A stretch of 64,000 bases of DNA, taken from NCBI GenBank assembly GCA_027603945.1, contig JADIIU010000017.1:101782-165781 (forward strand), in the 5' to 3' direction. Shown piece after piece: positions 520 through 59,341 of this stretch (positions are counted from its first letter, which is position 1; the number at the start of each line of letters is the position of its first letter). Made by a program: the position numbers and the translations under genes. The notes beneath the pieces were generated by a model. That model did no database searches, was not told the DNA's origin, and saw nothing but the letters and a program-made list of their open reading frames with translations. This DNA comes from Terramyces sp. JEL0728. Its lineage: Eukaryota; Chytridiomycota; Chytridiomycetes; Rhizophydiales; Terramycetaceae.

Positions 520-3474
520 ATGACAGAGTGGACTGCAAGTAAAGTCAGAAAAACATTTATCGAATATTTTGAAAAGAATAGCCACAGCAATATTGTTTCA
601 TCTTCAACAATTCCTCATCATGACCCAACGCTGCTGTTTGCTAACTCTGGAATGAACCAGGTACATTTGGATTTATCCTAGTTCAAACCAATCTTCCAAG
701 GGACAATTGACCCCAACTCGGACTTTGCAAAACTAACTAGAGCTGCCAATTCACAAAAGTGTATCCGTGCTGGTGGTAAGCACAATGATTTGGAAGATGT
801 CGGCAAGGACACTTACCATCACACCTTCTTTGAAATGCTGGGTAATTGGTCATTTGGGGACTATTTCAAAAAGGAAGCAATTGCCTTTGCCTGGGAATTA
901 TTAACCGTCGTCTACAAGTTGCCAAAAGACAGACTTTATGTGACCTACTTTGAAGGAGATCAGAAATTAGGGTTGGGACCTGATTTGGAAGCCAAACAAA
1001 TGTGGTTGGAAATTGGAGTCCCGGAAGACCATATTCTTCCTGGTGATTCAAAGGACAACTTTTGGGAAATGGGGGACCAAGGACCTTGTGGCCCTTGCTC
1101 TGAAGTCCACTTTGACAGAATTGGCGGAAGAAATTGCAGAGAATTGGTAAACATGGATGATCCAGATGTGATTGAAATTTGGAATTTAGTCTTTATGCAA
1201 TTCAACCGCGAGGCTGATAGATCCCTTCGCCCACTACCAAACAAACACATTGACACTGGTATGGGAATGGAAAGACTAGTGTCTATTTTGCAAGATAAAC
1301 GATCCAACTATGACACTGATGTATTCACTGGAATTTTCGCAGCAATCCAAAGATTGACTGGTGCTCGTAGCTACACCGGCAAGTTGGGTGCTGAAGATGT
1401 GGATGGCATTGATACTGCTTATCGTGTAATTGCCGACCATGTTAGAACATTGACTTTTGCTATTTCTGATGGCGGTGTGCCTAGCAATGAAGGCAGAGGA
1501 TATGTATTGCGCAGAATTTTAAGGAGAGGTGCGCGATACGCCCGCAAAAAGTTCAATGTTCCAATAGGAACCTTCTTTTCTTCGCTGGTTGATACTGTAG
1601 TCTCTGAAATGGTAGATATTTCTAATGCAGGGTGATGCTTTCCCGGAAATTCGCAAAAGAGTCGACGACTTGAAGGAGATTTTGAATGAAGAAGAACGCA
1701 GCTTTGCAAAAACTTTGGATAGAGGAGAAAAGCTGTTTGCAGACTATTTGGCTAAATCAAAGGCACAAAACCTAAAATTGATATCTGGAAATGATGTATG
1801 GCGGCTGTACGACACTTACGGCTTCCCTGTAGATTTGACCAGATTGATGGCAGAAGAAAACGGCATTGGAATCAACGAAAGTGAATTTGAACTTGCACAA
1901 AACGATGCCAGAGTTAGATCTCAAAAGAAAAAGACTGCAGGCAGTGGAGAAGCAGTTGCTTTAGATGTTCATGCTCTTGGTGCTATTGAAAAGAAAGGAA
2001 TTGCGCCAACCAACGATGAGTTTAAATATGGTAAAATTGGTTTTATAGATAGGATTTGACGATATCAAAGCAACTATCAAGGCAATTTACCTGAATGGGC
2101 AATTTGTCGATAATGTCAACTCTGACACTGTCCAAAATACGTTTGGTATAGTTCTAGACAAAACCAACTTTTATGCGGAGCAAGGTGGCCAACAATTTGA
2201 CACTGGAAACTTGTCGGTTGATGGGCAATTGGATTTTGCTGTGGAAGATGTGCAAGTATTTGGGGGTTATGTTTTGCACATTGGATACTTGAAATATGGA
2301 TCAGTTCAGGTTGGCGACGAGCTATTATGCTCATATGATGAATTGCGCAGATGGCCTCTTAGAAACAATCACACTTGCACCCACATTCTCAACTTTGCGC
2401 TCAGACAGATTTTGGGTGCAGTTGTCGACCAAAAAGGCTCCTTGGTTGCCCCTGAAAAATTCCGATTTGACTATTCTTGCAAGAATGCTCCTTCTGTTGA
2501 AGAGCTGTCAAAGGTTGAAGCTATTGTAAATGAATTTATCAAGAAAAACAGCTCAATCTACTACAAGGATGTCCCTCTCGCACTCGCAAAGCAAATCAAT
2601 GGGTTGCGTGCTGTTTTTGGGGAAGTATACCCCGACCCGGTTAGAGTAGTTTCTGTTGGCAATGATGTTGATGAACTTTTAAAGAATCCAAGCAATCCCG
2701 AATGGGCAAAAACCTCAATCGAATTCTGTGGTGGAACTCATGTTAAAAAAACCGGGGACATCAAACGATTTGTTATTTTGGAAGATGGAGCATTAGCCAA
2801 AGGTATCAGAAGAATTATTGGTGTAACGGGCGATGAAGCATTGAAAGCCCAAAGAGATGCTGATGAATATGAAGCCAAGGTGAATGACTTGAAGAAACTT
2901 GATGTTTCGCAATTGGAATCTGCTATGAAACTGTTGGGCAAGGTAATTTAAACTAAAACCAGGAATTGGAAACTGCTGTGATTCCAACTGTAAGGAAAAA
3001 CGAAATCCGAAAGGAATTCGATCAAATCAAAAAAGAATTTGACGAAAGTGAAAAATCTCGTAAAGCTCAGGAAAGCAAAAAGGTTGATATTCCTAACACC
3101 AGGCTGTTGACGAAATCAAAACAGTATTCACTGAAAATCCTGACAAGAATTTTTATGTTGCTGTTATTAACACCACTGGCAACACCAAGGCGTTATCTCA
3201 AGCTATCAGTCACGTAAAAGGGCTGCCTGGAAAGGCTGCTCTCCTCATTGCTGTTGACCACCAAAATCAGAAGGTAAACCACCAGTGTGTTGTCCCACAG
3301 GTATTTGTTGAAAAGGGATTAAAGGCATCTGAATGGGCTCAAGTAGTTGCAGATGTAGTTGGCGGAAAGAAAGGAGGAAATGATTTGTCTGCCCAGGGAG
3401 CTGGTACTGGAGTGTCCAAGACTGGCCATGCAGTTACCCTTGCTGATGAATTCGCTGCTAAACTTTTATTGTGA
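520..3474 (+). CDS. Alanyl-tRNA synthetase (cytosolic, possibly also mitochondrial)
   Basis: Class II aminoacyl-tRNA synthetase charging tRNA-Ala. Joining six exons gives about 950 residues, close to the usual 950-970. The catalytic core reads GNWSFGDYF early on; the editing domain has HTCTH at about residue 597 and CGGTH at about 715; the C-terminal C-Ala region reads GKGGN-like ([11 protein letters not shown]) before the stop. Introns are 661-681 (21 nt), 1612-1630 (19), 2031-2052 (22), 2943-2962 (20) and 3083-3102 (20), each needed to keep family-conserved sequence in frame. ATG 520 starts the canonical cytosolic protein. The frame is also open upstream to ATG 421, adding 33 residues with several Arg/Lys and no Asp/Glu, a possible mitochondrial presequence, as expected if one gene serves both compartments (known for yeast ALA1). 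AATAAA lies nine bases after the stop. Confidence 0.95.
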
Positions 3475-3656
3475 GGTTTGAAATAAATATTTGATTAATC
3501 ACTGTACATTCTTGCCCCTCGCAATAATAAACCAAACAAATTCTGGAATTTTGCGGCGTTTTCAATCATGTCAGCGTGCCACATCCCAAAAAAGCAATTG
3601 GCGCATCAGCGCGCCTCAAACTGATGTATATCTAGCGATATCTAAAACGCTCTCCA

Positions 3657-6889: not shown

Positions 6890-8001
6890 TTATGTTGAAT
6901 TGCCCAGATTATCCTGAGCCGATTCATGAAGAACGCGTTCCAGCTCTTGTGGATCGTCATTGTTGGGGGCTTCTTGCATTGATCGTCTCATTGCCTCCAT
7001 TATCATTAATTCTTCAATGTCGGCACCAAGGTAGCGATAGGCTTGGTTAAAGGAGACTTACCTTGGAGATAGGCAGCAGAAGGATCCTCAGAGCTTCTGG
7101 CATTTCTAGCCAATTCTCTGGCAATTCTATTATCGTTTTCACCATGTCTTTCGTACAAATTAGCAGCTAATCTATTGTTAGAGTGGATTACATTGCTGCA
7201 TTGGCCAACTGGGCTTCACTAGGTTAATCCAATATTACGTTAAAACTTGAATTTGTCTACGTCTGGCATGGTTAAGAGCTGCTCTTTGTTCTTCCAGTTG
7301 GCGTTTTCTTTCCATATCCTGTTTTCTTTGCTGCCAATCGGGACGAAGATCATCTAGCATAAGAGAACAAATAATTTAAGAATCAGAAATATAACCAATC
7401 CGCTCTAGTGACATACCTGATGTTACTACAGTTGGATGTTGATGACTAATACTCTTTCGCCTGGTGCTACCATCGTCAGTGTATCTTTGTTTGAATCCAG
7501 TAGAGTGATATGCATTATAAACTACTCCAAAATGCGGCTGACAGCAATATGGACACTCTGCTGGATCAAATGTTGTTTCTGGTCTTTTTATTTGAAGGAA
7601 ACAGTCTGTACATATCGGTTGATCACAGCATCTCGTATAATTGATATTTTTAGGATAATACTAATTGAGCAACAAACTACCAAGAAACAAATAGGACATT
7701 CTATTGGGTCTCTTTTCAATTCCTCTAAACTGGTATTGCTTGCAGTATCGGATGCAGCTTTCTTGTGCTTTAAACTGGATAACGAGCCGGATTTCTGAGA
7801 TATTGGCTGATTTTTCGTTGCAGTAAAGTCTTCAATGGAATCTACTCCGGGGTAAAATGGACTTAGCCGTCTGTTTAAAATGAACTTGTGTATTGCTTCC
7901 TTATCGTAGTCGTTCTTCAGTGGATATAGATTTCCGTACGGATTTAGTCTTCCGAAATCTACAAAGACCTCTTTCTCATCCTTGCTGTTTGAATGTCCCA
8001 T
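6890..8001 (-). CDS. Sip5-like zinc-finger protein
   Basis: Fungal Sip5 family, first described as a partner of the Snf1 kinase; the exact role is unclear. Six exons encode about 322 residues. The N-terminus begins MGHSNSK, which fits an N-myristoylation site. LSPFYPG is followed by the hallmark [19 protein letters not shown] and PICTDCF Cys clusters, a RING-like zinc finger. Further on come SDDLRPDW and a helical Arg/Glu-rich C-terminus. Introns in transcript order are 7661-7680 (20 nt), 7354-7416 (63), 7219-7238 (20), 7172-7191 (20) and 7042-7061 (20). The 63-nt intron is one of three exceptions to the tiny-intron rule here. The gene is divergent from clathrin light chain with 67 bp between start codons. 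Confidence 0.85.
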
Positions 8002-8068
8002 TTCGAATTAAGGAAATTCGAGGCTTGAAATTCGTGGGATAAAATTCTGGTGGCTTTCTCTAATCACA
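8002..8068. promoter_or_regulatory. 67-bp divergent promoter (Sip5-like / clathrin light chain)
   Basis: Only 67 bp separate the two divergent ATG codons (8001 minus, 8069 plus). Both 5' UTRs and any core promoter elements must fit here or lie inside the partner gene. No clear TATA box is visible. Confidence 0.5.
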
Positions 8069-8801
8069 ATGGCAGACTTTGGAGACTTTACAAATGCAGA
8101 TTCAGATCCAACAGCAGATTTTTTAGCTAGAGAGCAAGCTATTTTAGGGGCAGATGCAGCTTTATTTGGAAATCCCATGGAAACAACACCAGCAGCCCCA
8201 AAGCAATGGGAAACACCAACCGATGACTTGTTATTTGGTGATACTCCCGCTGAACAACCCCTTATTGAGTCTAATCCATCTCCTGTAGATTTTGGAGCAT
8301 TACAGCAACCAGTAGATTTTGGAACACCAATTAGTTTCCAACAAGATAGTCTCCAAGAAAGCGTAGCTCAATCTATTCCCGAGCCAGTGCAAGAAGTTCA
8401 GTCCCAAGCTCTATTAGATTGGCAAGTGGAATTCGATAGGAAAGTCGTGGAAAGAGACGAAATGGCCAAAGACAAGCATGGTCGGATTTTGAACGAGGCA
8501 AAAGAAGCGCTGGACAGATTTTATGCTGAATACAATGAAAAGAAGCAGAAATCAATCGCCAGAAACAAAGAATTGGAAAAGAATTTGATTGCTGCCAGGG
8601 ACGACAATACCTCAGGAACCGTGTGGGTACTTGCTGCTAATGTAGGAACGTGTATTGAAGCAGGTTGAAGGATCCCAAAAGAAGCAAGACAAGAAGGACG
8701 ACAAGAAGAAGGAAAAAGTTGTCAAGGCCGATACCTCTCGCTTCAAGCAAGTTCTCGTTTCCTTGAAGAACGACAAGGATGCACCTGGAATCAAAGTCTA
8801 A
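8069..8801 (+). CDS. Clathrin light chain
   Basis: Regulatory light chain of the clathrin triskelion, acting at coated vesicles. Two exons give 237 residues. The N-terminus is acidic (DFGDF, DPTADFLAREQ), as in all clathrin light chains. The central part (about residues 117-180) is a charged helix that would bind the heavy chain, with FYAEYNEKKQK and the terminal SGTVWERV motif. The 19-nt intron 8627-8645 falls right after the conserved Trp. The C-terminus is Lys-rich and ends DTSRFKQVL-like. The stop codon forms part of TAATAAA at 8799, so stop and polyadenylation signal overlap. Arp3 starts 68 bp downstream on the same strand. Confidence 0.93.
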
Positions 8802-8869
8802 TAAATCACTATTTTTTACTTGTTAAATTTCGTTCAAGGTGGCTGTTTCCTTTGCAATCTAATTCAGAA

Positions 8870-10269
8870 ATGACTTTGGGTTTACCGACGGTTGTTATCG
8901 ACAATGGAACAGGGTAAGCCGACTACTAATAAGATATACAAAGATGGGTTACGCTGGGAACAACGATCCTCAGTACATCATTCCAACTGCAATCGCAACC
9001 AAAGAAGCGGCAAACAGGACCGGAAATCAAGCTGGAGGGACTTCCAAAAAGGGAATTGAAGATTTGGACTATTTTATTGGAGATGAAGCATTGGCAAACT
9101 CTAAAACTTATGCTGTCAGCTACCCTGTCCGCCATGCTCAGGTTGAAAACTGGGATTTGATGGAAAAGTTTCATCAAGCGTGTATTTTTGAATATCTCAG
9201 ATGCGAGCCTGAAGATCATTGCTTCCTGTTGGTATTTGTCCTTTAAATCTAGACTGAAGCGCCTTTGAATGCACCTGAAAATCGTGAATATACGGCAGAG
9301 ATCTTTTTCGAATCATTTGGTGTAAAAGGCTTATATATTGCAGTGCAAGCAGTCTTGGCTTTGGCCGCTTCTTGGACTTCGGGCAAAGGAGAACAAACAC
9401 TTACCGGGACCGTCATTGATTCTGGTGATGGTGTTACTCACGTTATCCCAGTGGTAATAGAATGCTAAAGCTAGGCTGACGGATACGTTATCGGATCCTC
9501 AATCAAGCATATTCCGATCGCTGGCAGAGATATCACCTATTTTGTACAGCAACTGCTGCGTGAAAGAGAAAATTCAATACCGCCTGAAGAATCTCTTGAA
9601 GTTGCAAAGAGAATCAAGGAAACCTATTCATATGTGTGCCCAGATATCGTAAAGGAATTCAGAAAGTATGAGCTTGAAGGAGATAAATGGATCAAAAGAC
9701 ATGAGTTCATCAATGCGTTAACCAAAAAAGTATATTATTTTAACACAGCCATACCATGTAGATGTTGGATTTGAGAGATTTTTGGGGCCAGAAATTTTCT
9801 TCAACCCCGAAATTGCCAGTTCAGATTTCCTTACTCCATTGCCTGATGTGGTAGATCAAGTAATTCAAAGCTGTCCTATTGATACTAGACGTGGGCTCTA
9901 CAAAGTATTCTTTTTTAATATCAGCATATTGTATTATCCGGTGGGTCGACTATGTTCAAGGATTTTGCGCGTCGTTTGAATAGAGATATCAAAAAAATGG
10001 TCGATGCTAGACTTGCGCATTCTCAGCAAGTATCCCAAGCGAATTTGTCTTCTGAAGCTCAAATTAAAGCTCGGCAAATAGATGTAAATGTCGTTTCTCA
10101 CAGAAAGCAGCGTTACGCTGTATGGTTTGGTGGTTCATTGTTGGCAGATACGGTAATACAACATTAATTTTAGCCTGACTTTTACAGCTACTGCCACACC
10201 AAAGCACAGTATGAAGAATATGGACCAAGTATTGCCCGCTACAACAAAGTTTTTGGTTCCATTTTGTAA
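8870..10269 (+). CDS. ARP3: Actin-related protein 3 (Arp2/3 complex)
   Basis: Actin-fold subunit of the Arp2/3 complex that nucleates branched actin. Seven exons encode about 425 residues, close to the usual 418-430. Diagnostic segments are [81 protein letters not shown] and [13 protein letters not shown]. Introns are 8914-8933 (20 nt), 9232-9252 (21), 9454-9474 (21), 9730-9748 (19), 9905-9924 (20) and 10153-10173 (21). All six are required to keep the conserved actin-family sequence continuous, so this gene is one of the best proofs of the tiny introns. AATAAA follows eight bases after the stop. It converges on the next gene with 105 bp between stops. Confidence 0.97.
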
Positions 10270-10374
10270 CCAGCAATAAACCAATTTTAAATGCGATTTT
10301 GGCCCTAAAGATATCCGCCATTCGTTTGTTAACAGACACTGCTGAATGGATACAAGTCACATTTAATCAATATA

Positions 10375-11271
10375 TTAGTGATCCACTTTGAGGGAGAAAT
10401 CAATATGGGGAACACTCTGAGTAATGCTTCCAAAACTTAAAATGTCAACATTTGGCGACATGAACGGTGCAGCGTTAGTTAAAGTTAGCCCGCCAGACCC
10501 TTCAATCAAAAACCTATGGTTCCCTGCCCATTTCGATTTCAAATTCCCAGCACAAACATGAATCCCAGGACCATCGAAATTATCCAGCATAATAATATCA
10601 GCGCCAGCTAATATAGCCTCGTCTGCTTCTTCTTCGGATCTGCATTCGACTTCAATTTTCAATGCAAACCCGCCAACAGAACGAGCTTGCTTCACTGCAT
10701 CTGTAATCGAACCAGTGGCCCAAATATGATTGTCTTTTAACATGATCATGGAAGATAAATCCATACGATGTTGATCAACTCCACCGACTAAACTTGCATA
10801 TTTTTCAACAATTCTAAATCCTGGAGTAGTTTTGCGAGTAGCAGCAATTACTCCATCCCATTTTTGTTCTTTCTTCAATTTCCACAGTGCCCTGGCTCTT
10901 GTTGCGATACCAGAAGCCCTTGCAAGCATGTTCAAAGCAGGTCTTTCCCCTAGTAATAATTTTCTTGCTGGTCCAGTAACTTTTGCTACTTTTAGCTTTC
11001 CAGTTGGACCTGGGTTGAATTCCTCTCCTTCCTTCAAATACCATTCAACTCTATTATTATACAAAAGTTACTTGCAGCCAACTTGAGCAAATACCTCGTT
11101 GAAGAAGGGAACACCAGCTAGCACACCACTGGCTTTTCCAAATAAATAGGCGACCTTTTCATTGTCGCCTACGACAAAACCTCCATAATCAAAACTAGGA
11201 GTGTCTTCATCAAGCCATGAAGAGACTTGCTTTTTCCAGTTTGTTGGGAGTAAATGTTCCAAAGACGACAT
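10375..11271 (-). CDS. BNA6: Nicotinate-nucleotide pyrophosphorylase (quinolinate phosphoribosyltransferase)
   Basis: Converts quinolinate and PRPP to nicotinate mononucleotide in de novo NAD synthesis from tryptophan. Two exons give about 291 residues, the usual family length. Conserved features are [13 protein letters not shown], the catalytic [10 protein letters not shown], the [15 protein letters not shown] segment, [13 protein letters not shown] and IEGSGGL. The single 21-nt intron 11051-11071 lies after the GCK in the N-terminal domain. Function and family are clear. The upstream gene is divergent, 269 bp away. Confidence 0.95.
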
Positions 11272-11540: not shown

Positions 11541-12579
11541 ATGAAAGGAATTGCAATTTCTTCATACGTCAAAGTAGTTAGTAGCTAAATTAGTCTGTCA
11601 GCGAGCTTCAAATTTCAGAATTACCAAATCCCAAGTTGGACGGAAAGAAGGATCAGTTAGTGATTAAAGTAGTAGCTTCAGCAGCCAATTTCTTTGATAT
11701 ACTTCAAGTGCAAGGAAAATATCAGACCCAGCCTCCATTCCCATGGATTGCTGGATATGAATTTGCAGGAATTGTAACTGAATCTACTTCGCCTGGATTT
11801 AATGTTGGCGATCGTGTATTTGGTGGATCTCAAGGAGCCTATGGGGAATACGTCAAAGTTAATGTCAAGACCAACCCCGTCTTACACATCCCTGACGGTT
11901 TGTCGTTTGAAGAGGCTTCAACTCTATATATAACCGCACCCACTAGTTATCTTGCTATTTTTGAACGAGGAAAAGTACAAAAAGGAGAAACCGTCTTGGT
12001 TCATGCAGGTGCTGGCGGTGTTGGGTATTTATTTGTTAAATTAGCTTAATGGCGGTGCAAATGGCAAGGGCTGCTGGTGCGTTTGTTATCGCAACTGCAT
12101 CTACTCCAGAAAAGTTGGAAATCTGCAAGAAATTCGGTGCTGATGTTGGAATTAATTACAAGGACAAGGATTGGATTCAACAAGTCAAGAAAATCACAAA
12201 AGGAAAGGGATGTGATGTAATTTACGACCCTGTTGGACTGGTTGACCAATCTTTAAAAATCATTGCTTTCAATGGTAGAATCCTTATTGTTGGATTTGCA
12301 GGAGGTGCTATCGAAAAAATTGCCATGAACAAATTATTGTTGAAGCAATGCTCGGTAGTTGGGGTCTTTTGGGGAGGCACTACTATTAGCGACGCAAAAA
12401 CTGTGCCAAAGGTATGGCATGGAATTTTAAACCTCATAGCCGAAGGAAAGCTTAAAGCCACTGTATTTGAAAAGATTTATCACGGAATAGACACCGTCCC
12501 TTCGGCTTTGGAAGCTTTAGGCAACAGGGAAACTTGGGGTAAAGTGGTGATCAGAATGAACACTGGATCGAAATACTAA
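11541..12579 (+). CDS. Zinc-free quinone oxidoreductase (NADPH:quinone reductase / QOR type, MDR superfamily)
   Basis: A medium-chain dehydrogenase/reductase expected to reduce quinones or enones with NADPH. Three exons encode about 332 residues. The N-terminal GroES-like half includes IKVVASAANFFDILQVQGKYQ and GYEFAGIV. The nucleotide-binding site reads VLVHAGAGGVG, which the 20-nt intron 12025-12044 interrupts after the last Gly. NPxxxDVIYDPVG-like sequence follows. No zinc ligands of alcohol dehydrogenases are seen. The first intron is 11574-11593 (20 nt), after only 11 codons. The stop lies 13 bp from the stop of the convergent Caf120-like gene, so the two 3' UTRs must overlap. Confidence 0.88.
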
Positions 12580-12592: not shown

Positions 12593-15500
12593 TTATTTTG
12601 AAACTTCACTTTGACTTCCTTCTTCTGTTCCAGATTCACTGACGCTTCCCACATCGCTGTCGACTGGCCGTGCAGCTGTTTTAGACCGATCCTCTTCACT
12701 TTCTTCAGATTCATCGCCAGTTTCAGATTCGTCGTCGCTTATACTACCTTCGGATTCTTCACTAACACTGCCTTCACCATCTTCAGACTCTTCGCTAACA
12801 CTTCCTTCGTCGCTGTCAGTTTGCTTAGCCTGTTTCTTCTTACTTGATCTATTCCCTGGTTTTACATTCTTTTGAGGATAAACTGGCTGTGTTGGCATCA
12901 CTCCCAAGTAAGGTCTGGATATTGGATTAATCGATTCAAATGCCGGAGTTGGGGCTCTGTGATCTTTTAAACCAAGCGGTTCGTCTGCAGAATCATCTGA
13001 AACCGACCCATTCGAGTCAGTTTCTTCTTTGGAACTGGATGTGGTGAGGGAGGTATCTGTTGCGGACTCTGAGCCGGTGTTGCTGGTATAATCTGTTGAT
13101 ACCGATTTAGGTTTTGGGAAACGAGGCTGTTCGTCGTCACTTTCTTCCGAGCCGGATTCTGAAACGCTCCCCAAACTAGATCTAGTTTCCTCTGTCCCGC
13201 TGTGATCGTCGCCATCGTCCTGGTTACTTTCTGTCCCGCTGGTAGCTTTCGATCTTGCTTCAGAGCTTTGCGCATCAGATTCCGAAGAGCTAAGATAGGC
13301 AGAAGAAGCAGTCGAGGATCCACCAGTTTTCCAATTAATATTTGGCAACGAAAATGGATTGGCGTTTGCCCCTGGGGATACAGATCTGCGGTTTTCGTAT
13401 GTGTTTGTAGGAACTGCCAAGTTTTGGACTGGATGATGAAGTTGATCTACCAATGTGCTCATTTGTGAGATATAATTCAACATTGTTTGAATCAACATTG
13501 GATTTGGCTGCCTAGCTGACCCTTGCAGCAGTTGCGTCATTTGATCCAGAATAGGAGCCACTTTTCCAGCAAATACAGTGATATCTGTTTGCGTTTGAGT
13601 CCTAATATTACTTTATGCTTACGGAGGCGGTTGGATATAACCAACAAATCCAGGAACCATCCCTCCGCCAGGGACCATTCCCGGCGCTGGCCCTAATCCA
13701 GTCAACAGTTGTCCGGTCGGATTAGCACCGTGTTTACGGAACATTTCTCTTTCTTGTTGACGCCTGTCCATTTCAGCAAATAATCCATCGTGTAATTTTG
13801 GTTTTTCATCGGTAAAATTGTAATCCACCAGAATTTCTCCAGCAGTGTTTTTTTTCTTGTACATTTCCTTTTCCTGCTTGATCCTGCTCATTTCAGCCAT
13901 CAAGCCAGCGTGTAAATCGGGTTTCTTTTGAACTATTGTGTGATCTTGCATATTTGCAGAGCTTATTTGCATATTTTGGATTCCAATAAGTGCGCCGCCA
14001 GCATGTTTCTTCAGCTCTTTTTCTCGCTGTCTCCTATCAACCTGTCCCAACAAACCTATTTCATGATGCATCTTGTCATGCGGATCATGAACTGTACCCA
14101 GTAACGGACCAGCCAAAAACTCTTTCTTCCCCACACCTTGATTAATTCTTTGCACCAAAGAATTCTCATTAAACAGCTCTTCAACTCTTTCAGGCTCTAT
14201 CTGTCTGCCTTTTGCGCTCAGCTGAAATCAGCAATAATTACCATAAGATTTACATCCTGCTTGGCATTTGACACTCCGCTGATAAATGGACCAGACTGGG
14301 TAGGTCTATTGGTTGGAATTGTATTTTGCGCCAGCAAAGAGTTGTTTTGGATATTGGAAGTTTTTGCTCCTGCAGTAACAAAAGGTCCTCCACCAAGTGG
14401 CAGTTTAGAGTTCTGCGCAGGTCTAGCAAGCAAAGAGTTTTGGGTAATATTGGACGCTTTTGCATTGTTACCGATATCAAACAACGGTCCACTTGCGGGT
14501 ATTTTTGCAGAGAGGGGGTTAGATTGTGCCAATAGTGAATTTTCGGCAATATTAGTCCCGGTTTTGGGAAGACCGCCAATTAATGGGCCTCCAGTGTATT
14601 TTGATTGCATGACTTGAGCTTGGGCCAACAGTGTGTTTTGCTACATTAAAATAAGTGTACCGGAATACTGTCAGTTTTTGTGTTATTGACACTATCAAAC
14701 AACGGCCCTGAGCTAACACCTTTCTGTGCTCTGCCTTGTTGCACAGATAACAGCGAATTTTGCGCAATTTCATTCTTGGCTTGAGGTAATGCACCAACTA
14801 ATGGACCATATGCGCTTGTACGTTGATTGAACCCTTGATTCTGCCCCAAAAGAGAATTTTCCTACGATTATTATATACTCACAGCTATTAGAGCATCAGG
14901 TTTTGCAGGTGCAACATTGTTTAAGAATGGACCTGCACCAGAAACAGTGTTTCTATTCGATTTATCTTGTCCCAAAAGGGAAGATTGCTAGATTAATGGC
15001 GCATTACATTAATTGGTGCATTCGGATCATTCAGGTTCAAGTTATCCAGTAATGGCCCTGTGGTAGGATTCTTGGATAGTGGCCCAAGTACTTGAGCAAG
15101 AAGGGAATTTTCTTGAATAACAGAGTCTTGCTTGTTGCCATCCAAAAAGTTGCCGCCTAACTGCAAAGAAGCACCTGTCTGCTGTTGACCCAAAAGTGAA
15201 TTTTGCTAGAATTAGAAAAAGCTACTCCAATAACATCAGCTTCTTTTGTATTTGAAACATTAAATAATGGCCCACTAGCAACATTTCTAACTTGAGAAGT
15301 TCTTTGCTGCCTATCAAGCAAAGAATTTTCCCCAAATTGAGCTGGTGCTTTTTGATCGTCAAAGTTTAGGGACGTATGCCTTTCCTTCTTTTCTACTTCT
15401 TTTGAAGGAGGGAGGATATTTCCAAATAACGGACCAGCAGGCCGCTTGACTTGTTCTTTTTCAGCCATTCTTGCCAAAAGAGAATTTTTACCGTAAACTG

Positions 15501-20800: not shown

Positions 20801-22071
20801 TGTTGCATGACAATGTGGATGATGGGCTGAGTGGAATAATGGAGCTGGACGAGTTGGAAAATTCACCTGTCAAGCCATTAGGAATGAACCTAGAAGCTGT
20901 GTGGAGAAAGTTAGGAGCAAGTTCGCCAATAATGGATGTCAGTATGGATGCAACTTTTAACAGCTCTACTCATCGATTTGTTGAACCAGATAATGGACAA
21001 AATATTAAACCAGCATGTATTATCAATATACCAGCCCTTCAAAGTGTTAATGTGGAACAAAATATACCAACAGCTACTTTTGAACAATTTGGTCCCACTT
21101 TGAGTTTAGGCAGCCCAGCCAACAGTAAAGCTATCAAGGACGCAATTGACCAGTTGATGCATTTCAAAAAGGAAACCCCCAATGTGCCAGTAAAAGAGCA
21201 GAAACCGGAGGAGTGCAGCATATTTACAAAAGAGGAGCACCAAGATACAAGTCCATCTAGGAAGGACGGGGAAAAGCTATCCACAATACCACAGACAAAA
21301 CACCTCTCAAAATCAATGAACATGCTGCCCAAAAAGAATAATTTCAAGTCCGAGATTTCACAGATAGAAGACTCTATTTATGGTAAGTATTAGTTAACGC
21401 GAGATATTTCAAGAAATTTGGCACCAGGCGAATCAATGATTATTCAAACTGCTGCGCCAATATCTATACCGATTATGAAGAAAACCTTAATGAAAGCAGT
21501 CGAGCTATCAGTTAAGCATTTGAAATTTGAAAAGAGCTTGGGCCAGGTGAACTATTTTGCTCTATATGCTGATGGTCTAATGAACGGATATTTATCAAAC
21601 GCAAATTTATCTGTAGATATTCCGCAAAGGTTCGTAGAAGCGTTACATCCAACTTTAAAGGAGGTATTCCTTTTGGATGCATCACTTTTTGGAGAAGTAC
21701 TGACAGAATTAAGTCTTGATTACCACCCAACGCGTACTAACCCCGATGATATGTTATTTGAATGGATCCAAGGTCTAGTTTCTGTCCATAGGCTGCTGCA
21801 GCCGTTGTCAATTTCTTTCAAGCAAATGGAATCGCAGCTAAAAAAACCAATATCCCTTGGCCAAGCGCTAGTTTTAGTTAGGGACAAGATATCCGTAATC
21901 AAACTGACTTCTCAATCAAAGATAACCGAAAATGATACGATACGTATTCAGTCAACCTTTGATTTGAATGGCACGTTTGGCTCAGTCAATAGAGTTTACA
22001 ATGCTGCAGCACCGTTTGATGTTCCTCTAAAAAATTGGATGAAAGTTTTGTTGAAAAATACGTTTGAATAA
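17862..22071 (+). CDS. Large protein of unknown function, helical N-terminus and long disordered middle
   Basis: Three exons encode about 1,390 residues. I do not recognise the family. Residues to about 90 are charged and carry a direct repeat KQLKDKQLKDK. Residues about 95-600 are Leu/Ile/Lys-rich and helical, possibly HEAT/ARM-like. Residues about 600-1,160 are polar and probably disordered, with many Ser-Pro/Thr-Pro sites (RTPISSPGRLS, RFDSSPQDSPP) suited to CDK-type kinases. The last 230 residues are again folded and hydrophobic. Introns are 18308-18326 (19 nt) and 21383-21403 (21). ATG 17862 is the first in frame, only 22 bp from the divergent Caf120-like start; a later in-frame ATG near 18080 is an alternative. 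The stop codon overlaps AATAAA. A nuclear or cell-cycle role is a guess. Confidence 0.7.
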
Positions 22072-26559: not shown

Positions 26560-26627
26560 CGGTAGATAATTATAAAATGAGCGGGTGGATTAAACAACTG
26601 AATGACATAAGTTAAAAATACATTTAT

Positions 26628-44751: not shown

Positions 44752-45761
44752 TTAAATATACTCTTCAGGGTGCTCATAGTCATTGTCAGGATCACCACTA
44801 AATTAGAATAAAATTACCTTGGATTGGGTTTCTTGTCGAAAGGAGTAATCGGGTCAAATCTTGCGCCGTGAGGAACTGAACCAGGTGGTAGCTGCATTGG
44901 GTTGTTTGGATCTGGTTTGTAAGGGTTTTCAGGAAGGTACGGATTAGGTTGATATGGATTAGGTTGAGGAATACCACCTTGGTAAGGAATTCCTCCAAAT
45001 GGTGTGCCAACTCCACCAATTTCACCGCCATAAGGTGCTTTGTATGGGTTGTCAGAGAATGGATCCATTTGTGGTCTGATTGGATCAATTACTTTATGAT
45101 TTCCTAAATTTGGCGGAAATGCACTCCCTGGATAATTGCCTGGAATACCCGGATAATTACCTGGGAATCCTGTATTTCCTGCAGGTACACCCGGACTAGT
45201 AAACATTGGATGATCAGGACCGACAATCATGCCACCACCAGAATTAATTCCCTTAAAATTCGGTTCTAAATCTGATCTTCCGATTTCAAATTTAGGAGTA
45301 ATATTTACACTAGCTACAGTAACCGAAACACCATATTGTACAGGCTTTGGTAATGGTTGAGAAAGAGGAGTGTGCTGTCCTGCTGGTGCGACTTGCGGTT
45401 TCTTTTGTTGGCTAAACATATCTGTTTCTTTTTGAACGTTGGCTTTGAAATCATCCGCTACTTGCTGATCCACTCTACCTTTCAACAACACCACCAGCCC
45501 AATAATAATTGCGCTGATTTTATCCCACTCCCAGTACATACTAGACAATGGCAGATCAGCATCAAACGTAAATGAATTTGAATCCAATTGATACTCTGAA
45601 TCTTTCAACAGCAAAATGAATTCGCCGAGTTTGGTTTTACAGAAATATTGGCCGTCTTTGATTTGTTTGATTTCCACTTTGAGTGAAGAGAGGGTATGAC
45701 GAGTGAGGGCATCGAGAAGATCTTGCTTTGAATTGTAATTCTTGTTTTTGAAAACTTGCAT
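44752..45761 (-). CDS. Proteasome inhibitor PI31-like protein (PSMF1 family)
   Basis: PI31 binds the 20S proteasome and helps its assembly or transport. Two exons encode about 329 residues. Residues 1-110 form the FP-type N-terminal domain; the rest is Pro/Gly/Asn-rich and disordered, with the family hallmarks IGRSDLEP, GGGMIVGPDHPMF and VPHGARFDPITP near the end. The 20-nt intron 44798-44817 lies just before the acidic terminal peptide DPDNDYEHPEEYI, which ends at the stop and is typical of the family. Stop and polyadenylation signal merge as TAATAAA. Confidence 0.85.
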
Positions 45762-47954: not shown

Positions 47955-48920
47955 ATGAAAATATCAACAATGTCGAGAATGCTAGTCTTGCTTCCCCTAA
48001 TTTTGATTATGACATGTTTTTCATGGTTCCTGCAACCTGCATCTGTTGAAAAGTCTCAAACTGCGTCTGCTGCAAAAGTCGAAAAGCCTTCTACTGCATT
48101 CACCCATCAATCACGAAAAATCGTTGGGCCGATGGATAACGACTGGCTGGTAGAAAATGTCTAATTGTAGTTGCTCGCTAAACAGATTTTGGATAAAGAT
48201 AATCATTTCGCAATGATGAGATTCGCAGACGGTGAACAAGCTGTTATTGACCGACAGCCATTGGTATCAGAGCAAGACAGCTGGGAATACAAAGGCGGAG
48301 AAAAGTCAATGCTGTCTACTGATTTGGCTGGGACTCTAAGGGGACACTATGGCCAACCCGTTTACTATGGACTTTCTGGAGACGAAAATGTTGCGTCGCT
48401 AAACAGCTTCCTGTCTCAAATCGAGCAGAATTTGGACTATATTACATACTCGAATGTCTTTGTGAACTCTAATTACAAAAGAACCAGAAATATGTGGAAA
48501 AAGATCCAAGCTGGAGAAGCTGGCCCGGTAGTGATTTTCGCAAGTAAAGAAAGCAGAGCCAACGCTGAATCGTTTGTGACCCTGCAAGAGTACTTGGAGT
48601 GTCCGAATAACGGCTTGGATTGGTACGAAACTCATCATGATGAAATTAAGAAAGAGTGGACTAGGCTTGCGAAAAAATATACAAACACACTATTCATTAT
48701 GTCTTGTGGGCCATTGACCAACATTGGTGTTCACACAATGTGGAATCTCAACAATAGAAACAAGTACATTGATTTTGGTTCAAGTGTTGATGAAGTGTTG
48801 AAAGGTAAAAAAACAAGACCTTATATGGACGACGGCAATTTCTATAGCAACCAGTTTGATTCTGCTTTCAAGCTTGACGCCAAAGGTAAAGCAGACATGC
48901 TTCCAGGATATTTCTATTAA
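47955..48920 (+). CDS. Type II membrane protein, putative GT-D-fold glycosyltransferase
   Basis: Two exons encode about 314 residues. A short N-terminus and one membrane helix (MLVLLPLILIMTCFSWFL) give Golgi-type II topology, followed by a stem and a soluble domain. FAMMRFADGE, then YKGGEKSMLSTDLAGTLRG, and late MSCGPLTNIGVHTMW...YIDFGSSVDEVLKG resemble the DUF1792/GT-D family of bacterial glycosyltransferases, where RFGDGE-like and CGP...IDIG motifs recur. The 21-nt intron is 48150-48170. The stop is part of TAATAAA. If right, it would glycosylate proteins such as the neighbouring surface proteins; the family call is from memory of motifs. Confidence 0.5.
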
Positions 48921-49928: not shown

Positions 49929-51270
49929 TCAACGACTCACAAATTCCTTATTCATTGATTCGATTGGCAACTTTGCCGATTCAGCTAGTTTTTGCATCAT
50001 TGAGAGAGTGGAGATGTCTGTATCATACACCCCATACCAACCTACAATTAAATAAAGTTACCTGGCGCTTCATGATGAGGATCGCCTACCCTGCACCTAC
50101 CATCCTTTTCATCTCCTGGTCTACTAGCACCACTGTATACCCAAAACCCAAATCCCGCGTAAGCACCACCACTTTTTCGTAAATCAATGCTTTTTTCAAG
50201 CATGGCTTTGTAGTATCTATCCCTGTTAGCTACAGTATGCTTGCAACTGTAAATATCAGCCTTTTCTTTGGCCACCCAGTTGTCTCTTGGAAACCCAAAT
50301 TCTTCCAGTAGCAAAGGTTTGTTGATTTCTCTTGCCCATTGATCAACCTTGTCAATAACAGAAGTTCCCCATTCGATGGCATGGGTGATGTTTGCATCAG
50401 AAGAATCCATCATATCATACTCGCCTCTGTTTTGTACCCAAACGTGGTTACAGCAATAATCAATCGATGGACACGAGTGCGCTTGAATGAAATCTTTTTG
50501 ATCAAATTTCGACTCCAAACCAACAGTCACCATATGGTTTGGAGCAATTGATTTGATAAACTTGGCAGTGGATTCACACCACTCAAAAGAAGGTAGCTGA
50601 GGTTCATTACACAATTCAAAACTGAATATGCTGGGGTCATCTTTGTAGTGTAAGCCAGTGTGCTTGTTTTTTCTATTCAAGATATGCGAAATATGGTTGC
50701 GATAGATTTCTTGGCATTTTGGGGAGATACTTGAATCGTTGTAGAATCTGCCAGCGTAATCAATAAAGGTTTGCCAGTTTTTATCCGAGATTGCTGATGT
50801 ATAGTCGCCCAGTTCAGGAGACCACGAAGGTGGATATGGAATCGGCTCGCCAGTCATCCAATTAACATACTGGGCAAACCCGCCAGACCAATGCCAGAAA
50901 CTATGGTTATTGTTACTTACTTGTTTAGACAAAGTACTACTTTGAGCCCTCTTTTTGATATTTCTGCCATTGCAAAGTCAAGACCATCAAGTAAACTTTC
51001 ATTGTACACACCAACAGAGGGCATCAGAGAAGGCTTCATTCGGAATGGTTCGGTGTCCGGACCTTCAGATGCAGCCATGATACGCAGGTTGTTGATTCCA
51101 AACCTTTTCATGTGGTCCAAATCTTGGATTAACCGCTGCCTGTCACCCCAGCTGGAGTCTACAGCGCCAAGATTCATTGCTTGCCAATAGTTTGCAGAAT
51201 AAACAAAGTGATCTTGACCATCAAGTTGGAACTTTGTTCCTTTTGTCTTTACGTATCCAGCAGTGCCCAT
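49929..51270 (-). CDS. GH5 subfamily-7-like endo-beta-1,4-mannanase without visible signal peptide
   Basis: Three exons encode about 433 residues of a (beta/alpha)8 glycoside hydrolase. The acid/base Glu lies in FELCNEP and the nucleophile Glu in LLLEEFG; LNNFWHWSGGFAQY (joined across an intron) and NHVWVQNRGEYD also match fungal GH5_7 mannanases. Introns: 50901-50920 and 50042-50061, both 20 nt. The second is needed to reach the typical end GWYGVYDTD and adds about 38 residues. The ATG begins MGTAGYVKTKGTKFQLDGQD, directly into the catalytic domain, so no secretion signal is visible, which is unusual for a plant-wall enzyme. An upstream exon was searched for and not found. It is divergent from the CBM1-bearing mannanase. 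Confidence 0.85.
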
Positions 51271-51851: not shown

Positions 51852-54625
51852 ATGAAGTTTGTTCGTGCATTATCCTGTGGGAAGCTCTACGATCAGTGCG
51901 GTGGTGCTCAGTACACTGGAGCAGATTGCTGTGTTGATGGAACACGCTGTGTCTATCAAAGTCAATGGTATTCGCAATGTCAAGCTGTCGCCTCAACTAC
52001 TTGTGGTAATCTATGGGACAAGTGTGGTGGAGTTGGGTTTGCTGGTCCTTTTTGCTGTGCAACTGGTGCTGAATGCGTATATCAAGACCAGTACTACTCT
52101 CAATGCAAACCTGCCTCCAACCCTACTGCAGCAACGGTTGTAACTCCAACCACAACTATTCCTCAAGTTACTGCATTTGTACCTACGTCAAATGTAGCAC
52201 CATCCCCAACTGCAACGCTACTATCCAAAGATCAAATGAATGCTTTCGTAAAAGCTGATGGCACCTCGCTTTCTTTACTTGGAAATCCATTCTATTTTGG
52301 AGCAACCAACTTTTACAAACTCTTTTACTCTTATGAATCTGATTTGCCATACATATTCAACGACGCAGTTGCTATTAAATCCTCTGTAATTCGAACTTGG
52401 TGTTTCTGTGATGGGATTGACTGCGACAGCACGTCGTATGCAAACTTTCGATTCCACTTTACTGACTACGATTCGGCAAACAAACAGTTGGCGTTCAATG
52501 ATGATGTGGATAGCGGAGTCGGCAGATTAGACAGAGTATTGCAATATGCCAATCGGTACGGTGTCAAAATTATCTTTACTTTGGCAGGAAACTGGGGAGA
52601 TTTTGGCGGGGTAGATTTCTATGTCGACAAATTCTCTACAAACCAACCAAAGACTCATTCAGACTTTTTTACCAACGAAGCTGTCAAAACCCAATTCAAA
52701 AACTATATTTCTCATATTTTGAATAGGGTAAATACCATCACTGGCATAGCTTACAAGAATGATCCTGCTATTATGGCTTGGGAACTGGGAAATGAATTTA
52801 GGTGCGTTGGTTCTGGCCAATTCCCTAGAGATTCAAACTGCAAAGCAGCAACGATTACTAAATGGGTTGATGAAATGTCCACATTCATAAAAACCATTGA
52901 CCAAAATCATCTAGTTGCGATTGGCGATGAAGGGTTCTTTCAATACAACAGCTTTAGCCCGTCTGCAAACGGATATGCGGGATCGCCATACGGAAACCTG
53001 TGGAATGGCGACAATGACTTTGTTGGAAATGCTAAACTGAAAAATATTGATGTGCTCTCGTTCCACACATATTTTAGTAATCATTGGCTAATCTAGATCA
53101 ATGGAATACCAACGGCGACCCAGACTTTCTCCAAAACACACTGCAGTGGATCAAAGACCATGCAGCAGTTGCTCAAGCTGTGGGTAAGCCAGTGTATGTT
53201 GGTGAATATGGAGTTGACGTTGCCGATCAAAGAAGAAAAGACTTTCCAATAATTCAAAAACAGATTGAAGACTCCAACATAGCTGGGTCGTTAATGTGGT
53301 TGTTGCTCTCTCAAAACGGAACTATTCCTTGCAAAGAAATCCCCGATGAAAGCGGGCTAACTTTTGGCTTGTGTGCATCTGATCCTGATACTCAGAGCAT
53401 CTTGGTTCCTCACGCAACTACAATGTTCAACAAAGGCAAATCTACAGGATCTCAATCCCAATTTGTTACTAGAAATGGAATGCAGTTGATGCTGAACAAC
53501 AAACCGTTCTATTTTGGCGGTACCAACGTCTACAACTTGTTTTACAGTTCACCAGCGGATATCGATGCTATTTTCTCAAATTTGGTTTCATTGGATGCTA
53601 CTGTTGTTCGAACGTGGTTATTTGCAGATGGCAGAAAGAACGGAGCAAGTTACAATGGGCAACAAGTCTGGTTCCTTGATTTTGATTCAAACGGAAACAT
53701 TTACTTTAACGATGATGCAGACACTGGATTAGGAAGGATTGATTATGTTTTACAATCTGCACAGAAACATGGAATCAAACTGTTGTTTACCTTGGCCGAT
53801 AACTGGAACGCTTTCGGGGGAATTGATGTTTATACCAATGCCTTGCCAAATGCACAATCGAGGGCCCACTCTGTATTCTTTACCGACAATACCATCCAGG
53901 GCCAATTCAAACAATACATCGCACATGTATTGAACCGGGTAAACAGTCTGACACAGATCCAATACAAGAACGACCCAACAATCCTGGCATTTGAGCTGAT
54001 GAATGAAGCTAGATGTACTGGTGGCAATGAAAATACCAATCCTACTGATCCAAATTGCAGTAAAAACGGCGTAATTATAAAATGGATTGATGCAATGTCC
54101 GCATACATCAAGACTATTGACAGCAACCATTTGACTGCGGCTGGCGACGAAGGATTCTTCAACAACTATAACCAATATACCAATACCTATCCACTAGCCT
54201 ACAGCAATGTCTATGATGGTTCTGCAGGCACTGATTTCCAAGCAGTTGCAAATCTCAAAAATATTGATGTCCTTGGCATGCATTCGTACTTTAATCAATG
54301 GATGGACAGCAGCAAATTCAACCAGGATGTCTATTTGAAATACACTCAGTCTTGGATCGCTGACCACCAAGCGGTTGCTAAATCAGTCAACAAACCAATA
54401 TATCTTGGCGAATATGGTATCGGAGACACACAAATTAGACTGAACACGTACCCTAGTTTTCAACAGTCTCTAGATACACTCAATTATGCAGGCGCGACAA
54501 CTTGGAACATGAAGGCTGGCAATTGCCAGCCTTCCAGTGCACAGGACTATGACTATTGCCCCAATGCGGACAATATCCAAACATTTATGAAAAACTATGA
54601 TACAAAAATGAAAAATAAACAGTAG
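51852..54625 (+). CDS. Multidomain mannanase: two CBM1 plus two GH5 catalytic domains
   Basis: Two exons encode about 917 residues. Residues about 9-43 and 51-85 are two fungal CBM1 cellulose-binding modules (CGKLYDQCGG, CGNLWDKCGG, each with six Cys and aromatic platform residues). A Thr/Pro linker follows, then GH5 domain 1 (about 135-480; acid/base in WELGNEF, nucleophile in YVGEYGV) and GH5 domain 2 (about 545-915; FELMNEA, YLGEYGI). Both look catalytically intact and are about as similar as an old internal duplication. The 20-nt intron 53077-53096 splits the HTYFNQW segment. Oddly, only eight residues precede the first CBM1, too short for a normal signal peptide. The last codons contain AATAAA before the TAG, and the stop is 7 bp from the convergent GPCR gene's stop. 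Confidence 0.88.
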
Positions 54626-54632
54626 CTTTTTT

Positions 54633-55710: not shown

Positions 55711-55931
55711 ACGATATCTTTTTTTGGTAAAAAGTAAACAATGCGAGACGTAATTCAAACTCTGTTGGGTAAACAATAAATGCTGGCTGATTTCACAATT
55801 ACTTTATTCAAGCAAGTAATGAGGGATAATTCTCTAGATGCTATTAGTCGTAAAAGTCAACGAGCATAAAGGTCTTGAAAGGGAAGGCCGGAATAATATA
55901 ATAGTAATTGAAATTTTCAAGAGTGTATCTT

Positions 55932-56921: not shown

Positions 56922-57045
56922 TTTGTAAAAAAGTCATTGACATCATTGCTCAATCCAACAATGGCTGTAATACATGGACAATTCTAATTCGAGCACTACT
57001 TGGTATGCGTTTATTTAACTTGCAAAGCATGCGTCAAAAGTAAAA

Positions 57046-58112
57046 TCATCGCTTTTGATTTTGGGACTGAACTTGCGTTTCGGCATTGCTTTGATTGACT
57101 GTAGGCGCCAGCGACTCGGTTTTTGGTTTCTCTTTGCCTGATAGGTCGGCATTGGAGTTGAAAAGATTGCTGCGGAGAGTGAATCCATAGTACCTCCCGA
57201 TCAAATCATTCAAATTACTCCGAACATTCGAATCAAGCCATATTAATATGAGAGCGTTTCCTGCACTATTGCTTTCCGCAAGGCACAGACTGAACCCATC
57301 AAAAAACGGGCTGATGGCTTTATGGTTGATGATTTCATACAACACTTCAACGAAAAACAAACTCCATCCAAGCATTTGGCAACAGCAAATAATTACTGAT
57401 TTTTTCAGTAATAGTTTTTCCTTGGATGTCATTCTATGATTGACTTTCTTTCGTCCAAAATAAAACAGTACAATTTGAGTGTATGCATAATTTACAAAGC
57501 TGGTGACTGTGCCGACCATTACCAAGGTAATAATACACGCAGGCAAAATAAATGGATCCGGACTAAACCAGAAATATGCACAGGTCAATCGCGAAGGATG
57601 CAGCACTATTATTTCTCTATATGAGTTGGTATAAAAGGGATACAGCCCAAATAATATAGAAAAGATCCATACTGAACACACCCATATTTTCGCTCTATGA
57701 AAATCCAGCTCCCATCCTTTTATGATACACAGGTATCTTTCCATGGTGATCATCATTAGAGATAAGGCAGAACTCGTACAAAAGCTAACGGTAATAATTG
57801 AAGATATTACACATCCTGTTTGCCCTTGATCAATGATTACATACCAGTTGCAAATCCATTGTAAATCCAATTAATCGCAGCGTGTACCACTGCATGCAGA
57901 CTAAGCAAATAATCAGAGACTGCTAATGAAAGTATAAGTGCAAACCTAGGCGAGTTGATTTGATTGTATGAAGAAATCAGAATTGGAAAATATAGAACAG
58001 AACTAATTCCTCCTAATATCGTTGCCAATCCGTACCACGCTGTTTGTTCACTATCAAATTCAATAATCTCTGTAATATTATCGAAACTAATGAATTCTGG
58101 GTAATCAATCAT
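57046..58112 (-). CDS. Class A (rhodopsin-like) GPCR, paralog of the preceding gene
   Basis: Two exons encode about 348 residues from ATG 58112, chosen because it aligns with the start of the neighbouring paralog; ATG 58190 in the same frame would add 26 residues. SPRFALILSLAVSDYLLSLHA, MITMERYLCI and CCCQMLGWSLFF match the paralog. The 20-nt intron 57825-57844 lies in the GFATGQTGCV segment before helix 3, where the neighbour has none. The C-tail of about 60 residues is rich in Ser, Asn and Gln. Seven membrane helices; ligand unknown. Confidence 0.8.
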
Positions 58113-58371
58113 ATTTGCAAACTGCCTGGTGACATCACCAGAATAATAGTTTGGTTTATACCATGGAGTATCCGACAGTTGTTTTACCAACTAAATATCC
58201 AGATTTTCTGCGAGTTTCGAGAATTCTTCATCTTGGGATGGTATTGACGTGCACAAAGACCCGCACGCCTACATATCCAGGAACCTCAAGATGATTAATA
58301 AATAATTTCAATAACCATTTCCTAGATTTAAAAATTTCTCTGGTAAACAATTAATTTCATTTCCACCCTCC

Positions 58372-59341
58372 ATGTTGAGCGAAATCACCCTTGCAATATT
58401 AATATTCTCGCTAATATGCTGCGTTGTAACAATAATATATATAGTACAGCAAAATAGTTATCGCCTTTTGATAATGAAATGGATTCTAGTGTTGCAAATC
58501 GCGAATATACTCACTGTTGGACAATTAATTGCTGGATACAACAAATACCCTTTGGATAATGTGCTATTACTAGTGGAAGGATTATCGATATTGCTAGTGC
58601 TGATATTATGCTACTATGTTCACCTGAAAACATTCGAGATATTCTCAATCCTGGACAATCGTATTACCCAAACAGCTATCAACGTTGCATTATATACCGG
58701 TCTGGGGGCTTTTGTCCTCATAATGGGTTCGTTTATGTTTGTTACGATTACATCAGATCCGGTCTTGGAGCCAGTACAATAGTCTAATTTAGGTGTTTTC
58801 GGTGCTGTTTGATGTTCTCCTTGTACTTGTTATTCTGATAGTCGATACGCAAGTTTGCTACATAGCGTTCATGATTTATTCACATTTGAAAACCCTCACA
58901 AACAGTACAGAGCAGCGGGTTCATCTTCTCATATTTTCACTAATTGGGATAGTAGGGTTGGACGCTTTGGTGTATTATCTGTATTATACGGCAAAACATG
59001 CCCCGCCAACTATAGCATCAGTACAGCAATTTGAAATTTCTTGCGCATTAGTTAGCATCCATTCGTCCATCCTCTCTGTTTTATTTTATCAATTTAAAGG
59101 CTTGGCGTTAAGGAAAAGGCGGCATGTAGAAACGTCAAACAACGAGATAGCAACAATCAAGGAATGGTCAGTCAAAGACGAACCAAAAAAGATGGATGAA
59201 AGAATGCCGACTGAATCAAAGAAATCTCCGCTAGTTGATTTACTGCAACACGCGCCAGTCAAACAAGAACCAACTGCAAAATTAGAACTAGGCCTGCTGG
59301 GAGATTCATTCAACGTTCAATCATGTAGTCAAAGTTTGTAA
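58372..59341 (+). CDS. Seven-helix membrane protein of unknown family
   Basis: Two exons encode about 316 residues with about seven hydrophobic helices in the first 240 residues and a charged cytoplasmic tail of about 75 residues (Lys/Glu-rich). No large ectodomain and no ERY motif, so it belongs to neither receptor family nearby, though it resembles the 3.7-kb protein in build. The 19-nt intron 58774-58792 is in the loop before helix 5. The stop codon is 5 bp from the stop of the convergent receptor gene. Confidence 0.72.

Follow-up and report, generated by a model that had tools for sequence, protein, structure and literature searches.

How far an intron can shrink and still be removed by a spliceosome is an unanswered question of structure. 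The known extremes, in the accessible parts of the papers cited below, come from relict nuclei, from reduced parasites and from ciliates whose branching factors have changed. The question is raised here by a stretch of 64 kilobases (kb; positions 101782-165781 of contig C17, hereafter the window) from the chytrid Terramyces sp. JEL0728, which we take to be a free-living saprotroph of the Rhizophydiales and whose genome assembly comprises 15,016,339 bases in 231 contigs. An initial annotation of the window had proposed 45 spliceosomal introns of only 19-22 nucleotides (nt). From the analysis of genomic sequence described here, the U2-type spliceosomal introns of this organism very probably lie for the most part at a size floor of 19-22 nt, not far above the smallest introns known. 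The short class was found in all three regions sampled (64, 100 and 100 kb), and four more contigs showed it in genes of the actin family. Terramyces can serve as a natural test of the smallest intron for an ordinary-looking splicing machine.

Length class in motif-blind gene finding

Statistics were computed on 264 kb, made up of the window and one 100-kb segment from each of C1 and C2, two other contigs, on both strands; further loci were taken as segments of 3-4 kb. Introns were called by Viterbi decoding, using a codon model derived from long open frames, an intron-length prior that was flat over 10-150 nt, and a splice rule consisting of two end dinucleotides only, blind to any branch motif (flat-prior finder). 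Seven other end-dinucleotide pairs were run as controls. In a second version (site-weighted finder), weight matrices for the end sites were added and length and branch terms were absent; it was run for GT-AG only, without control pairs. Gene models built with a length and branch-motif prior (prior-based models) served for coordinates only and not as proof of the length class.

Of the 316 GT-AG introns called by the flat-prior finder, 142 were 19-22 nt long, with 0, 32, 65, 32, 13 and 3 introns at 18, 19, 20, 21, 22 and 23 nt, respectively, and at most five at every other length within 10-59 nt. Between 18 and 23 nt, 145 GT-AG introns stood against 12-34 for the control pairs, which yielded 259-344 introns each and whose highest count at a single length within 10-59 nt was 13 (GT..TG at 23 nt). 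The 19-22 nt class was the sole length class within 10-150 nt to rise above the controls, and its share of the calls was 25 of 57 for the window, 50 of 110 for C1 and 67 of 149 for C2. Raw GT..AG pairs were nearly flat over spacings of 15-25 nt (1399-1683 at each), and base composition therefore does not account for the spike. With the site-weighted finder the class comprised 228 of 497 calls across 137 gene models, 76 of which contained at least one short intron. Counts at 21 nt are lower bounds, because stop-free 21-nt introns escape a codon-based finder; one such intron, in L005 near 1368-1388, was seen by homology alone. A pass with the maximum intron raised to 600 nt gave 50 gene models instead of 137, which looks like the joining of neighbouring genes, and was set aside.

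Introns placed by protein alignment

Genomic DNA was aligned to protein at a constant gap cost, with any gap length and any gap ends allowed (unconstrained alignment). For AlaRS, Arp3 and SF3B1, profiles of relatives' proteins were used, drawn from 12 of 120 listed relatives for AlaRS, 10 of 120 for Arp3 and 12 of 120 for SF3B1, with Terramyces and Boothiomyces proteins left out. Boothiomyces macroporosus was first among the matches listed for SF3B1 (97%) and Arp3 (99%), and the next named relatives among those listed for AlaRS were the chytrids Polyrhizophydium, Entophlyctis and Batrachochytrium. Four actin-family genes (two actins, an Arp1-like gene and Arp2, on contigs C24, C29, C75 and C76) were aligned to the Terramyces actin-1 or actin-2 model and never to their own; a fifth locus, on C10, was modelled by the prior-based finder only.

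The seven genes gave 34 intron-type gaps, 30 of which were 19-23 nt long with GT..AG within 6 nt of where the unguided alignment had put the gap, a property that a random segment has by chance in about 4% of cases. Gap lengths were 21, 19, 22, 20 and 20 nt in AlaRS, 20, 21, 21, 19, 20 and 21 nt in Arp3, 16, 68, 20 and 21 nt in SF3B1, 21, 22, 21 and 21 nt in actin-1, 20 and 20 nt in actin-2, 248, 21, 20, 22, 21, 20, 21 and 20 nt in the Arp1-like gene, and 23, 20, 22, 20 and 54 nt in Arp2. The 16-nt gap in SF3B1 lacked GT..AG and was read as a 19-nt intron that the alignment had misplaced where the sequence diverges; the 248-nt gap, also without GT..AG, was read as an artefact at the start of a local alignment, and the 54-nt gap as an Arp2-lineage insertion containing a 21-nt intron. 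Small indels occurred besides the intron-type gaps, many of them in the divergent N-terminus of SF3B1. The initial annotation had held that conserved proteins become continuous when the short segments are removed, and this was borne out for AlaRS, Arp3 (with the six introns it had counted) and SF3B1. Their removal also brought the products of the two actins, the Arp1-like gene and Arp2 into line with conserved proteins.

Intron anatomy

In the motif-blind set of 142 introns, A occupied position 3 in 87%, and positions 4-6 were most often A (59%), T (43%) and T (59%); T at position 5, as against 23% G, is unlike the usual GTAAGT. The 3′ ends were TAG in 88 and CAG in 31. A YTRAY branch motif was present in 97 of the 142, compared with a mean of 30 and a maximum of 45 over 500 shuffles of the intron interiors. 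In the site-weighted set, obtained with a finder that never used the motif, it was present in 152 of 228 introns against 49 over 300 shuffles.

The A of the motif was located at position 14 in 80 of these 152 introns, at 15 in 57, at 16 in nine, at 17 in one and at 8-11 in five; at positions 12 and 13 there was none. It was followed by 5 nt in 72 and by 6 nt in 63. The combinations of position and tail 14 + 5 (44 introns), 14 + 6 (35), 15 + 5 (25) and 15 + 6 (22), which give lengths of 19, 20, 20 and 21 nt, accounted for 126 of the 152, and in shuffled introns the motif was spread evenly over positions 7-17. Since both the position of the A and the tail are nearly fixed, intron length is the sum of two rulers. 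The initial annotation was right that a positioned branch motif exists, but its distance of 5-8 nt from the intron end was too loose: most tails are 5-6 nt, with the A at position 14-15.

Splicing machinery

A U2 small nuclear RNA (snRNA) scored 140 bits over the whole model, with GUAGUA intact. Genes for SF1, a relative of the U2AF large subunit, Yju2, Cwc25 and Isy1 were present in the genome, and that for SF3B1 lies inside the window. The N-terminus of Yju2 aligned from residue 1. Cwc25 was found at two near-identical places, and its domain was matched a third time, more weakly, in a different protein; the Cwc25 start, MGGGDLNLKKSWHP, is identical to that of the CWC25 homolog in entry 5yzg, presumably the human protein, and the N-terminal GGG plug is kept. 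The two places belong to contigs C30 and C33 (L033 and L034), which share a 3.1-kb segment, 99.2% identical, carrying the Cwc25 gene and its neighbours; these are possibly allelic contigs of a diploid genome.

For Isy1, the best stretch started at residue 32 or later of the model in eight of eight solved matches, and the 5′ end of the gene model is unsettled. At this end (L038, reverse strand, about 1229-1293) three units resembling short introns stand head to tail, spaced by 1 and 3 nt. By reading, removal of all 65 nt creates a stop, and therefore micro-exons or another Isy1 start would be in use.

Points against and alternative explanations

The reading of these segments as spliceosomal introns, put forward in the initial annotation, is supported by the GT..AG ends, the positioned branch motif, the restored protein continuity, the U2 snRNA and the spliceosomal genes, and is probably correct. 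Several observations weigh against it or against the dominance of the short class. Calls outside 19-22 nt amounted to 174 of 316 with the flat-prior finder, though at or below control level, and to 269 of 497 with the site-weighted finder, the version run without control; a maximum intron of 600 nt led to 484 calls above 100 nt, which were taken for noise and not inspected singly. The strict YTRAY motif is absent from 76 of 228 introns, and a looser motif, present in 121 of the 142 motif-blind introns against 67 when shuffled, gives a smaller gain and puts one A at position 12. U1 snRNA was found in the genome neither by the Rfam model nor by pattern; for U6, no pattern match was obtained and there were two sub-threshold matches only (27 bits, cut-off 44). 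These misses may reflect divergence, a U6 gene that is interrupted, or sequences missing from the assembly. The U6-like candidates L010 and L011 (contigs C199 and C111) are similar to each other and have ACAGAGA but no AGC triad; they were rejected as probably false, perhaps a repeat. The relative of the U2AF large subunit reached 252 bits in an exon-by-exon search, below the curated cut-off of 310, as might be expected of a gene broken by introns.

That the short introns are real but a minority, the longer majority having been missed by methods favouring short ones, is very unlikely. Three points speak for such a majority: the 68-nt gap in SF3B1, which has GT..AG ends and is apparently a genuine longer intron; the 150-nt limit of the flat-prior finder; and the penalty that the prior-based models put on other lengths. 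However, the alignments of seven genes had no length limit and gave this one clear longer intron among 34 gaps, and GT-AG calls numbered 54 at 24-59 nt against 94-127 for the controls, and 96 from 60 nt upwards against 107-147. Systematic insertions of 19-22 nt, introduced into intact genes by sequencing or assembly, might be thought of in a draft of 231 contigs, but insertions would not have in common GT..AG ends together with a branch motif at a set position. The near-identical segments of C30 and C33 carry the same introns, which counts weakly, since a single locus may be present here in duplicate; this explanation has next to no probability. It is likewise highly improbable that the segments are kept in mRNA and bypassed by ribosomal hopping or frameshifting, or are cut out without the spliceosome, by an enzyme of the HAC1/XBP1 type. 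Introns of the HAC1 type are known from single genes and have stem-loop cleavage sites, and the GT..AG ends, the branch-like motif at its set position, the spliceosomal genes and the U2 snRNA all argue against such a route.

Proposed mechanism of splicing at the size floor

On the preferred reading, that of U2-type introns compressed to 19-22 nt, the major spliceosome would take each intron as one unit, branching at the A of position 14 or 15 and leaving a lariat loop of 14-15 nt and a tail of 5-6 nt. The spread of 19-21 nt would then be the sum of two nearly fixed distances, from the 5′ splice site to the branch and from the branch to the 3′ splice site. The former would be set by the closest packing of the U6/5′ splice site and U2/branch helices in the active site, and the latter by the reach to the exon-ligation site. 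In spliceosome structures, about six nt of the intron 5′ end are held in the U6 helix and about five nt before the branch A in the U2 helix; two or three nt therefore remain as a connector. That the strict motif never puts its A at position 12 or 13, but does so at position 14 in 80 introns, suggests a physical limit; a steric origin of the two-ruler pattern is our inference. Recognition is probably by intron definition, because the spacing from branch to AG is too short for a polypyrimidine tract; it would proceed via U1/U6, SF1 and U2/SF3B1, with a T-rich stretch upstream of the branch instead.

As a tentative proposal, for which we would claim somewhat less than an even chance, steric hindrance in an ordinary spliceosome that retains its Cwc25 plug would set a hard floor, at 14 nt between the 5′ splice site and the A and at 5 nt between the A and the 3′ splice site; introns of this chytrid lineage would have been compressed onto this floor, and going below it, as heterotrichs did, would need changed branching factors. 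The same compressed state may hold in the close relative Boothiomyces. Since the sequences of SF3B1, Yju2 and Cwc25 are conserved in this fungus, the sharp cut-off offers an estimate of the floor for the standard machine, testable in model fungi.

Comparison with known ultrashort-intron systems

In the accessible text of PMC10245619, intron lengths are given as 15-16 nt for heterotrichs, 16-17 nt for mikrocytids and 18-21 nt for the chlorarachniophyte nucleomorph. Introns of the heterotrich Stentor coeruleus are described in the accessible part of PMC9505925 as GT-AG, AT-rich and 15-16 nt long, with the branch A at 10 or 11 and a 5-nt tail; the glycine plug is missing from Cwc25 and conservation is lacking at the N-terminus of Isy1, both of which the authors tie to avoiding a clash with the tight lariat. 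Terramyces resembles this system, as there described, in its genome-wide narrow class of ultrashort, AT-rich GT-AG introns, near-fixed branch A, 5-nt tail and U2 GUAGUA. It differs (same source and extent) in a loop of 14-15 nt compared with 10-11, in a clear YTRAY compared with a weak motif, in the share of genes with a short intron (76 of 137 models compared with 18%) and in the presence of the N-terminal GGG plug of Cwc25.

The mikrocytids Mikrocytos mackini and P. canceri likewise have uniform ultrashort introns of conserved sequence, again from the part of PMC10245619 consulted, but M. mackini is a reduced parasite with a reduced spliceosome and 224 introns, whereas 228 were called in 264 kb of Terramyces alone and the splicing-protein genes looked for were present. 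The chlorarachniophyte nucleomorph, on the same partial source, has nearly the same lengths but is what remains of an endosymbiont's nucleus, whereas in the fungus such introns belong to the main nucleus. Paramecium and Nyctotherus also have very short introns only; at about 25 nt (PMC5014332, accessible part) these are longer than those of Terramyces and belong to another lineage. Over the 264 kb and four further loci, Terramyces has the mark of an ultrashort-intron genome, a dominant narrow class at or below about 22 nt. To the extent of these sources, it groups with the ultrashort systems by length and stands apart in its lineage, in the clarity of its branch motif and in having kept the Cwc25 plug. 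No fungus with introns of 19-22 nt as the dominant class was found in the literature searched, the scope of which excluded bioRxiv preprints and most subscription papers.

Consequences for annotation

Two deposited Terramyces proteins were compared with the spliced models, of which AlaRS was spliced as predicted and Arp3 was mis-spliced. The spliced AlaRS (523-3474) is identical to the deposited Terramyces sp. JEL0728 alanine--tRNA ligase over all 906 residues, all five short introns having been removed in the latter; the data are therefore public, though the pattern seems unremarked. The deposited Arp3 (371 residues; locus 8870-10269) is missing an internal segment just upstream of the 19-nt intron 9730-9748 and, with the 21-nt intron 10153-10173 left in, terminates within that intron and loses its C-terminus, and Boothiomyces and Polyrhizophydium Arp3 match the spliced model where it fails. 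Some gene models therefore need re-annotation with a minimum intron of 15 nt.

Introns of the window

Introns of 19-22 nt across the window, as first claimed, are real on the evidence of the control-tested finder, the unconstrained alignment and the branch motif. In the prior-based models they number 47 of 54 window introns (8, 25, 12 and 2 of 19, 20, 21 and 22 nt); with 8914-8933, added from the Arp3 alignment, 48 are listed. The earlier count was 45 (8, 25, 10 and 2). Among the 48 are 24 of the 25 flat-prior window calls of 19-22 nt and all five sites named beforehand (14641-14660 on the minus strand, 8914-8933, 9730-9748, 1612-1630 and 39089-39108), and 13 are backed by unconstrained alignment (five in AlaRS, six in Arp3, and those at 39089 and 39959 in SF3B1). 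The predicted ends were confirmed, with GTA at the start of 44 and TAG or CAG at the end of 36 and 8, respectively.

Spliced products were matched to Pfam at 1e-5. The QPRT identity proposed earlier was upheld by both QRPTase domains, and the GH5-like product with introns at 50042-50061 and 50901-50920 matched Pfam Cellulase, the gene at 51852-54625 being a GH5 mannanase by the initial annotation; no Pfam match at this threshold was obtained for the genes at 6890-8001 and 44752-45761, labelled Sip5-like and PI31. The call at 27092-27112 is probably false.

Table 1. Short introns and related features of the window. A, unconstrained alignment; F, flat-prior finder; P, prior-based model; D, deposited-protein comparison.
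Gene	Length (nt)	Positions	Strand	Evidence
AlaRS	21	661-681	+	A; F
AlaRS	19	1612-1630	+	A
AlaRS	22	2031-2052	+	A
AlaRS	20	2943-2962	+	A; F
AlaRS	20	3083-3102	+	A; F
6890-8001	20	7042-7061	-	P only
6890-8001	20	7172-7191	-	P only
6890-8001	20	7219-7238	-	P only
6890-8001	20	7661-7680	-	P only
Clathrin light chain	19	8627-8645	+	P; spliced protein, Pfam Clathrin_lg_ch
Arp3	20	8914-8933	+	A
Arp3	21	9232-9252	+	A
Arp3	21	9454-9474	+	A; F
Arp3	19	9730-9748	+	A; F; D
Arp3	20	9905-9924	+	A
Arp3	21	10153-10173	+	A; D
QPRT	21	11051-11071	-	F; spliced protein, both QRPTase domains
Zinc-type oxidoreductase	20	11574-11593	+	P; Pfam
Zinc-type oxidoreductase	20	12025-12044	+	F; Pfam
12593-17839	21	13602-13622	-	F
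12593-17839	20	14222-14241	-	F
12593-17839 (example in initial annotation)	20	14641-14660	-	F
12593-17839	21	14862-14882	-	F
12593-17839	20	14988-15007	-	F
12593-17839	20	15206-15225	-	F
12593-17839	22	17811-17832	-	P only
17862-22071	19	18308-18326	+	P, not F
17862-22071	21	21383-21403	+	F
22261-23835	20	22474-22493	+	F
22261-23835	20	22652-22671	+	F
22261-23835	21	23298-23318	+	P only
22261-23835	20	23346-23365	+	F
FAD/NAD-binding reductase	19	24595-24613	-	F; Pfam
25220-26615	20	25761-25780	+	P only
25220-26615	20	26546-26565	+	P only
Doubtful call	21	27092-27112	+	F; no strict YTRAY; antisense to another gene model
35612-37207	19	36165-36183	+	F
35612-37207	20	36773-36792	+	P, not F
SF3B1, N-terminal part	19	37466-37484	+	F; alignment put 16-nt gap without GT..AG here
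SF3B1 (longer intron)	68	38688-38755	+	A
SF3B1	20	39089-39108	+	A; F
SF3B1	21	39959-39979	+	A; F
44752-45761	20	44798-44817	-	P only
48009-48920	21	48150-48170	+	P only
GH5-like	20	50042-50061	-	P; Pfam Cellulase
GH5-like	20	50901-50920	-	P; Pfam Cellulase
51852-54625	20	53077-53096	+	F
Rhodopsin-type seven-transmembrane receptor	20	57825-57844	-	P; Pfam 7tm_1
58474-59341	19	58774-58792	+	P, not F

The N-terminal part of SF3B1 contains, at 37787-37906, five tandem copies of the eight-residue unit GQYGETPK. The rhodopsin-type seven-transmembrane receptor, at 57046-58112, matched Pfam 7tm_1 with 73 bits.

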